A DNA stretch of 61,304 nt, taken from assembly GCA_031177355.1 (NCBI GenBank), contig JAPSGR010000007.1, positions 1-61,304 on the forward strand, given 5' to 3'. The position numbers were made by a program, and so were the translations under genes. Below are positions 6,810 to 49,697 of this stretch, piece by piece. This DNA is from Candidatus Nitrosocosmicus sp. Its GTDB lineage: Archaea > Thermoproteota > Nitrososphaeria > Nitrososphaerales > Nitrososphaeraceae. A model generated the notes under the pieces. That model was not told where the DNA came from. It did not search any database and saw only the letters and a program-made list of their open reading frames with translations. Position 1 is the stretch's first letter. Every line of letters starts with the position of its first letter.

Positions 6810-8189
6810 ATGAATAAAGACAATAAAACACTCGATGTAAAAACACTTCATATAGGATTTGATGATACGGATTCAATAAACGGCAGGTGTACTACACATT
6901 TGTCATATTTAATATCAAAAGTGTTAATTAATAGATTCAATGTCGAGTTCATAGATTTTCCATTATTAGTACGTTTAAATCCTAATGTTCCTCTTAAAAC
7001 TAGAGGCAATGGTGCAGTTTGTCTAAGGATTAAAGGCAAGAATTATGAAACAATAATAGAAGAGATTACTCAAATCGTAGCAGGTTATTCGGAGTTACGC
7101 GAAGGCGCAAATCCAGGTTTGGCTTTTTATGAAGAAGACAACATTAGCAAAGACTTGTTACTATTTAGTCAAAATGCAATGGATACTATATTGAGTAAAC
7201 AACTTGCCATTAAAATAGCAAAAAAGAATAAAATACAATTTCATGTATTTGGAAAGGGTTATGGAATTGTGGGTGCACTTTCAGCCATAGGTTGTATTTT
7301 AGATTCAGATCATACTTTTGAAACAATAGCATACAGAAGTGAAGAGAATATAGGAAAAAGTAGAAAAACAAATGATTTAAGGGTAAAAAGATTAAGCGAA
7401 GAATCCTATCCATATACTTACAATAATTTTGATAAAAAAAACTTCAGGATTTTGATTACCCCTCATGGGCCAGACCCAGTATTTTGTGGTATTAGAGGAG
7501 AGGATCCTTTATTAACCACGTTTTTTTTAAAAAATTTGTGTATTGAAGAAGAGTTAGACGGCTATATGGTATTTAGATCTAATCAAGGAACAAATCTACA
7601 TCTTGTAAAGGAGAACAAAGGAAACGATATGAAACCCTATACAGCGGGACATATCAATTGTGAAGTTGCAACTTTGCCATATACAATTAATGGCGGTCAT
7701 GTGATATTTAAAATCAAGGACAAGTTAAATCATATGTTACCAGTAGCAGTATATCAACCGACTGGTTTAACTAAAATAGCAAGAATGTTAACAATTGGAG
7801 ATAAAATTGAAATAGGATATGGGGTACATTTGAAATCAAATAATCAACCCACACTCAATTTAGAATATCTGATCGTTAAAGAATTAGTTAAGGTTTTTGG
7901 AATGAAAAATCCTACTTGTATAAAGTGTTCAAAAAATATGAAATCAGAGGGAAGGAATAAGGGATATCAATGTCACGTCTGTAAAACAAAGATTAGATCA
8001 ATAGAAAAAATAAAGATAGAAAAAGATAGAGAAATTAAAAGCGGATTATATATCCCAGATCCTATTGCACATCGTCATCTTACAAAACCGTTTTCAAGAT
8101 ATGGTATGGAAAAAAGATATGATAGATTCGAAGTAATACATATGTTAAAAAGCATACAATGGATAAACGATAGCGGGGGGTTGATTTGA
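6810..8189 (+). CDS. tiaS: tRNA(Ile2) 2-agmatinylcytidine synthetase
   Basis: ATP-dependent enzyme that modifies the wobble C34 of tRNA-Ile2(CAU) with agmatine so that it reads AUA. The N-terminal HIGFDDTDSINGRCTTH motif is the signature kinase-like TCKD domain of TiaS; the central part is ferredoxin/OB-like, and a C-terminal zinc ribbon is seen at CIKCSK...CHVCK (about residues 371-395). Length (459) is normal. The final codons and the TGA (8187-8189) lie inside the antisense initiator tRNA gene, an overlap of about 19 bases. Confidence 0.92.
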   Translation: MNKDNKTLDVKTLHIGFDDTDSINGRCTTHLSYLISKVLINRFNVEFIDFPLLVRLNPNVPLKTRGNGAVCLRIKGKNYETIIEEITQIVAGYSELREGANPGLAFYEEDNISKDLLLFSQNAMDTILSKQLAIKIAKKNKIQFHVFGKGYGIVGALSAIGCILDSDHTFETIAYRSEENIGKSRKTNDLRVKRLSEESYPYTYNNFDKKNFRILITPHGPDPVFCGIRGEDPLLTTFFLKNLCIEEELDGYMVFRSNQGTNLHLVKENKGNDMKPYTAGHINCEVATLPYTINGGHVIFKIKDKLNHMLPVAVYQPTGLTKIARMLTIGDKIEIGYGVHLKSNNQPTLNLEYLIVKELVKVFGMKNPTCIKCSKNMKSEGRNKGYQCHVCKTKIRSIEKIKIEKDREIKSGLYIPDPIAHRHLTKPFSRYGMEKRYDRFEVIHMLKSIQWINDSGGLI

Positions 8190-8286
8190 ACCTACGGCTA
8201 TGCTTTATGCACAGTAACCGCTCTGCGGGTTATGAGCCCGCCGGGATAACCTAGCCCCTAAAAAGGTCTGGCTTCCCCACCCCGCT
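8171..8286 (-). tRNA. Initiator tRNA-Met (CAU) with two non-canonical introns
   Basis: Folding the minus strand by hand gives acceptor AGCGGGG/CCCCGCU, D stem GGGA/UCCC, anticodon stem GCGGG/CCCGC with loop CUCAUAA, a 5-nt variable loop, T stem GGUUG/CAACC with loop UUCAAAU, and discriminator A. This works only if two insertions are removed: 17 nt in the D loop (about 8253-8269) and 24 nt inside the T stem (about 8192-8215). The mature length is then 74 nt plus the discriminator. A1-U72 and three G-C pairs in the anticodon stem are archaeal initiator features. Intron ends could shift by a nucleotide. A TATA box lies 25-32 nt upstream. Confidence 0.85.
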
Positions 8287-8310
8287 AACTAATATTTGTA
8301 ATACAAGGAG

Positions 8311-8318
8311 TATATATA
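8311..8318 (-). promoter_or_regulatory. TATA box of the initiator tRNA gene
   Basis: TATATATA sits 25-32 nt upstream of the tRNA 5' end at 8286, the normal archaeal spacing. Confidence 0.6.
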
Positions 8319-8606
8319 CGGTATAGATCTGTTATCAAAAATACTAAAGGATTAAATCATCTATTCATACTGAATTTTCATCTATCTAATCTATTTGAGA
8401 AACTATGCCTATGTTAGTCTTTGACATGTATTTTGGTAACTTTATAAAAATATAATAATCACCCAGTTGCAGAAATACTACTATTAATTTATCCATTCAA
8501 TTCTGATCAATTCTATAGCCATTATGTAAACTAATAGGACCAATTGACATTTCTTATCCATCTATATAATGTGTTGTAGTATTATTGGAAGAAAATATTT
8601 TCCTAA
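8319..8606. other. Intergenic stretch between two tRNA genes
   Basis: AT-rich sequence with no open frame of note, no repeat and no recognisable RNA. It presumably holds only promoter and terminator signals of the flanking minus-strand tRNA genes. Confidence 0.5.
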
Positions 8607-8722
8607 TGCGGGAGGTGGGATTTGAACCCACGGACCCCTAAGAGATGAGGTATCTCAAACCCTGGTTTCTGAGCTTCATGTTTTTATAACTCACGCCTTT
8701 GACCAGGCTTGGCAACTCCCGC
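8607..8722 (-). tRNA. tRNA-Leu (probably GAG) with a roughly 30-nt intron
   Basis: Acceptor GCGGGAG/CUCCCGC, the leucine-type D arm (UUGCCAAGCCUGGUCAAAGG), a long class II variable arm and T arm GUGGG-UUCAAAU-CCCAC are clear. The anticodon arm is not contiguous: a 7-nt loop UUGAGAU (anticodon GAG) with 3' stem ACCUC is formed only if about 30 nt around 8648-8682 are removed from the 5' side of the anticodon stem. Exact splice points are ambiguous, so GAG is tentative, but the leucine identity of the body is firm. A TATA-like CATATATT lies at 8748-8755. Confidence 0.75.
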
Positions 8723-49606: not shown

Positions 49607-49697
49607 TGGGGCCAGAGGGATTCGAACCCTCGACCGCCAGCGCCCCGGGCTTATACCCAAATTTGGATGGTATCCTGCCAAGCTAGACGATAGCCCC
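49607..49697 (-). tRNA. tRNA, probably Pro (GGG), with a 17-nt intron in the anticodon stem
   Basis: Folding the minus strand gives acceptor GGGGCUA/UGGCCCC, D stem GUCU/GGAU with loop AGCUUGGCA, T arm GAGGG-UUCGAAU-CCCUC and discriminator A. The anticodon stem CCAGC/GCUGG forms only when 17 nt (49651-49667) are removed between its third and fourth bases; the mature length is then 73 nt plus the discriminator. The loop reads CCGGGGC: anticodon GGG (Pro) but with C at position 33 instead of the universal U. A TATA-like TTATTTTTAAA lies about 25-33 nt upstream. The body is certain; the identity is less so. Confidence 0.7.

Follow-up and report, generated by a model that had tools for sequence, protein, structure and literature searches.

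Excerpts of PMC8450103 and PMC4090602 describe non-canonical, multiple BHB introns in the tRNAs of Thaumarchaeota. The number given for archaeal tRNA genes in the passages available from PMC8450103 and PMC4390854 is "up to three" introns, and the list of non-canonical sites in the available part of PMC4090602, which ends in "etc.", includes 45/46, 59/60, 3/4 and 53/54. Interrupted initiator tRNAs are described in excerpts of PMC3218864 and PMC4090602: that of Thermofilum pendens is permuted at 59/60 and has an intron at 37/38, and that of Nanoarchaeum equitans is split at 37/38.

We analysed a stretch of 61,304 nt (the window) from the genome of a soil archaeon, Candidatus Nitrosocosmicus (contig JAPSGR010000007.1; order Nitrososphaerales, family Nitrososphaeraceae). 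A first-pass annotation had placed here an initiator tRNA gene with two introns outside the anticodon loop, one of 17 nt in the D loop and the other of 24 nt within the T stem, and had stated that a tRNA fold is obtained only after both are removed. These statements were borne out by the features of the locus, which are as follows.

8171..8286, minus strand: initiator tRNA-Met(CAU) gene, 116 nt including the discriminator A73 (8171)
8268..8286, minus strand: exon 1, mature nt 1-18 in standard numbering, 19 nt with 17a
8251..8267, minus strand: D-loop intron, 17 nt, at site 18^19 (between nt 18 and nt 19), letters ACCTTTTTAGGGGCTAG
8216..8250, minus strand: exon 2, 35 nt, nt 19 to 52, with the anticodon CAT at 8234-8232
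8192..8215, minus strand: T-stem intron, 24 nt, at site 52^53 (between nt 52 and nt 53), letters ACTGTGCATAAAGCATAGCCGTAG
8171..8191, minus strand: exon 3, 21 nt, nt 53 to A73
8310..8319, minus strand: TATA-like promoter element that reads gtatatatac on either strand and lies some 25-33 nt upstream of nt 1
6810..8189, plus strand: tiaS-like ORF of 459 aa, matching NF040849 and convergent with the tRNA gene

The hallmarks of an archaeal initiator tRNA-Met are an A1:U72 pair, a CAU anticodon and three G:C pairs at the base of the anticodon stem. All of them can be read from the window gene, which starts with AGCGGGG on the minus strand, ends with CCCCGCT followed by A73 (giving A1:T72), and has a CAT anticodon and an anticodon stem of GCGGG/CCCGC with GGG/CCC at its base. 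Excision of both introns yields a tRNA of 75 nt; the mature length of 74 nt given earlier is correct when A73 is left off and one short when it is counted. The spliced sequence is called as tRNA-Met(cat) by ARAGORN, has a cloverleaf as its minimum-energy fold, and is 96% identical over 75 nt to an intronless orthologue (L003, genome G060) from another family of the order. ARAGORN returned no tRNA from the unspliced gene, with introns allowed or not, and over the whole window it reported a Val tRNA only and made no call at the initiator locus. The Rfam tRNA model matched part of the locus at 15.4 bits, below the cut-off, and gave the intronless L003 gene 60.1 bits in a laxer mode. In gathering mode the Rfam scan matched nothing in L003, L001 or L107; because it missed the intact L003 tRNA, the gathering-mode result was left out as evidence. 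A run similar to the TATA-like element occurs at the same place in the 12 genus sequences listed.

The minus strand of the window holds other tRNA-like stretches. The one at 8604-8722, 320 nt upstream of the initiator, contains intron sequence and received an ARAGORN call of Tyr(ata) with a 33-nt intron. We do not rely on that call, and the stretch may be a class II tRNA gene interrupted by at least one intron. A tmRNA at the same coordinates was rejected, since the match of 16.5 bits lies under the cut-off and the stretch looks like a second intron-bearing tRNA. At 49607-49697, an Rfam tRNA match of 39.5 bits without an ARAGORN call probably marks a tRNA whose intron lies away from 37/38.

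In the bulge-helix-bulge (BHB) motif, a 4-bp helix between exon and intron has on either side a 3-nt bulge containing a splice site, and the cut falls after the second base of the bulge. Both window introns form all four central pairs. In the D loop, exon AGCC (8273-8270) pairs with intron GGCT (8256-8253) between the bulges AG^A and AG^G, followed by an inner helix of 3 bp. In the T stem, exon GCGG (8221-8218) pairs with intron CCGT (8197-8194) between TT^A and AG^G, and the inner helix has 6 bp. When the intron letters were shuffled 20,000 times, an equally good motif arose in 33 shuffles of the D intron and in one of the T intron. The minimum-energy fold of the 116-nt precursor (-51.3 kcal/mol) holds both BHB motifs, with the rest tRNA-like, and none of 200 dinucleotide shuffles (mean -39.1 kcal/mol) folds as well. 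In isolation the T motif was equalled by 5 of 200 shuffles. The isolated D motif was equalled by 72 of 200, so that its stability does not exceed that of the shuffles, which is a point against functional splicing.

Relatives of the gene were compared at five sites, in a set of 214 loci comprising 109 distinct gene sequences and 190 distinct introns. At least three of the four central pairs are present in 51/55 D introns (shuffle mean 4.7), 33/33 anticodon introns (3.5), 4/4 variable-loop introns (0.6), 65/65 distinct T-stem introns (13.9) and 33/33 T-loop introns (5.8); the parser rewards pairing, which raises these counts, although most intron ends follow from the mature sequence. Of the four D failures, two (L221 and L249) proved on re-parsing to be introns at 19^20 that form a complete motif. 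Exon nt 47 at the T-stem site covaries with its intron partner (G:T 45, G:C 13, T:A 4, T:G 2, C:G 1), and the first inner pair there is C:G in 50, T:A in 12, T:G in 2 and A:T in 1, the sequences being related and the counts therefore not independent events. The shuffles and the conservation of the gene together led us to reject a chance fold of the window gene.

The survey of the family began from an anticodon-arm search, which matched 60 of 70 genomes. Two more genes (L263 and L265) were recovered from unmatched genomes, and L139, cut by a contig end, was left out, giving 61 family genes that were parsed. Parsing used a fixed-site parser, whose sites were extended by 19^20 and 4^5 when two D introns and two acceptor stems could not be parsed; L203, labelled Akkermansia, was found in a scan of named records but stayed unparsed and outside the counts. 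No initiator gene was found in the eight remaining family genomes, most of which are incomplete, with G036 and G208 at 92-93% completeness. Introns in the D loop and T stem occur together in 48 of the parsed genes, in the D loop and T loop in 2, in the T stem only in 6 and in the T loop only in 5. The first-pass annotation had judged two introns in an initiator to be unusual, which does not agree with their presence in 50/61 genes; at least one is found in 61/61, an intronless gene in 0/61 and an intron at 37^38 in 0/61. Within the genus Ca. Nitrosocosmicus, D and T-stem introns are present in 15/15 genomes at the same sites with differing letters. The window gene is ordinary for its family.

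The window genome, a draft of 131 contigs, is 97% complete. A search of it with the mature sequence matched the three exons of this locus and one further 14-nt stretch, and no second initiator copy was found in the draft. Two other CAT tRNAs (L034 and L035), both starting with G, are presumably the elongator and Ile2 tRNAs. The same genome encodes two EndA paralogues (two PF01974 genes), which probably form one complex, and one RtcB ligase. Aligned with solved archaeal EndA, L062 retains the His and the Lys, and Phe takes the place of the Tyr of 2cv8 and 1a79; EndA L063 is without the aligned His. We take the aligned His, Lys and Tyr positions to be catalytic residues. Judged by this alignment, the Phe in place of Tyr in one subunit would count against the proposed splicing, a point tempered by chain B of Aeropyrum 3p1z, which also has Phe.

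Given its anatomy, its motifs, its single copy, its conservation and the enzymes present, we hold with high confidence that the locus is a functional single-copy initiator tRNA-Met gene, both of whose introns are spliced at BHB motifs by a two-subunit endonuclease and RtcB. The gene would be transcribed with the D-loop and T-stem introns inside, the archaeal endonuclease would excise both at their BHB motifs, and RtcB would ligate the exons into the mature initiator tRNA. In the family both introns would be old but fast-changing parts of the gene, and the overlap with tiaS would be a by-product of convergent neighbours. That the locus is instead a decayed pseudogene with two insertions, served by a working copy elsewhere, is scarcely credible: standard finders do not report the gene and an incomplete draft could hide a second copy in a gap, yet the search of the genome gave no such copy, the exons are intact, the same arrangement runs through all 15 genus genomes, in some of them on one long contig (L013, L014 and L015), and the splice motifs persist while the intron letters change. 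It is unlikely, though far less so, that the introns are kept for a function, either by splitting the D and T arms and so breaking the usual target of integrating elements, or by blocking elbow folding and use of the tRNA before splicing. Protection through disruption has been proposed by Randau and Soll, according to an excerpt of PMC4390854, and every parsed family gene has at least one non-canonical intron; against it, intronless orthologues occur in the order (4 distinct gene sequences), which means that the introns are dispensable in some of its members. Such a function is compatible with the splicing of a working initiator gene and not opposed to it.

A further alternative concerns the neighbour. 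The ORF at 6810-8189 matches NF040849 (TiaS, NCBIfam) over model positions 2-419 of 422 with 326 bits, under the curated cut-off of 600, and is named tiaS-like only, given full-length similarity at a score below that cut-off. The substrate of TiaS is tRNA-Ile2, not the initiator. The antisense overlap of the two genes, 8171-8189, is real and lies in the 3' exon of the tRNA; its 19 nt span the TGA stop of tiaS, the five sense codons before it and one base of the sixth-last codon, and not the last six codons and stop as first described. The first-pass annotation had also suggested that transcription through one gene could affect the other. As a regulatory arrangement this would work by interference, or with the tRNA strand acting as antisense RNA to the tiaS mRNA. 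We consider regulation of this kind very unlikely. In its favour is a conserved convergent neighbourhood: among genomes with tiaS located in the stretch around the tRNA gene, the tiaS stop is no more than 300 nt away from the tRNA end in 15/15 of the genus, 40/41 of the other family genomes and 7/12 of other families. Within f10, however, this holds for 1/4 located tiaS genes, and the overlap itself varies, being 19 nt in 12/15 and 3 nt in 3/15 genus genomes and occurring in 13/41 genomes of other family genera (19 nt in eight, 3 nt in two, and 14, 38 and 59 nt in one each), with none in the other 28. These lengths follow from stop codons fixed on the strand opposite the conserved 3' part of the tRNA, the common ones of 3 and 19 nt from a TAG formed by A73-T72-C71 and a TGA in the T loop. 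The suggested influence comes down to adjacency, and because the overlap differs between relatives, regulation through it is unsupported; we regard the overlap as incidental, within a neighbourhood retained across the family and in some parts of the order.

In other families of the order, initiator introns also occur at 37^38, 45^46 (L118-L121) and 59^60, and families f2 (L158, L281-L285) and f3 (L157) have an intron of 18-59 nt at 4^5 in the acceptor stem. The 4^5 introns pair with the first tRNA bases and the leader, each forming 4/4 central pairs, which the parser requires at that site; their splicing would have to precede 5' trimming. By intron number, the 109 distinct genes divide, before 4^5 is added, into 4 with none, 18 with one, 69 with two, 15 with three and 3 with four. 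Family f10 has a parsed gene in 33/46 genomes, of which 2 have one intron, 16 two, 12 three and 3 four. The genes that parse with four introns are listed here.

L107, at G306:C26, about 99776-99925: family f10, the same gene as L173 (JASHUU010000088.1)
L191, on JACWAI010000074.1: family f10, equated with G361 by place
L249, at G238:C51: family f10
L157, at G038:C46: family f3

Removal of the introns restores a standard initiator of 74 or 75 nt in each of these genes, and no intact second initiator copy was found in G306, G361, G238 or G038. Their minimum-energy folds hold only some of the motifs at once, which suggests that splicing would have to be ordered. From this comparison of sequences it is probable that the single initiator gene of the order has been interrupted at six main sites (4^5, 18^19 or 19^20, 37^38, 45^46, 52^53 and 59^60) and carries four introns in at least four species of two families, above the published three. 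If so, making the start tRNA would take eight cuts and four ligations, whose order would depend on the motif that can fold first, and confirmation would widen the known range of interrupted archaeal tRNA genes. One gene with zero to four introns at fixed sites offers a natural series for the gain, loss and order of removal of BHB introns. Since common tRNA finders miss such genes, genomes of the group can seem to be without an initiator tRNA.

We found no report of a four-intron archaeal tRNA or of the interrupted initiator of this group in the open-licence PMC literature, and the available portions of PMC3293823, PMC4033280, PMC4836417 and PMC6000648 make no mention of an interrupted initiator in the group. 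Genes of either kind may already be listed in tRNA databases such as GtRNAdb. BHB splicing of this type is known; what is worth following is the pattern across the order, with up to four introns. Like the non-canonical introns of Thermoproteales and Thaumarchaeota in the excerpts of PMC8450103 and PMC4090602, those of the window are short, bounded by BHB motifs, several to a gene and outside 37/38, and are accompanied by a two-subunit endonuclease. The sites 18/19 and 52/53 of the window and 4/5 of its relatives are, by contrast, absent from the list in the available part of PMC4090602, which ends in "etc.", and four relatives (L107, L191, L249 and L157) parse with four introns against the maximum of three in the published passages. 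The initiators of Thermofilum and Nanoarchaeum resemble that of the window in being interrupted and dependent on BHB processing (excerpts of PMC3218864 and PMC4090602), and at 59/60, the break point of the Thermofilum gene, relatives of the window gene have introns. Unlike either, the window gene is in one piece and in normal order; its introns occupy 18^19 and 52^53, and 37^38 has none.
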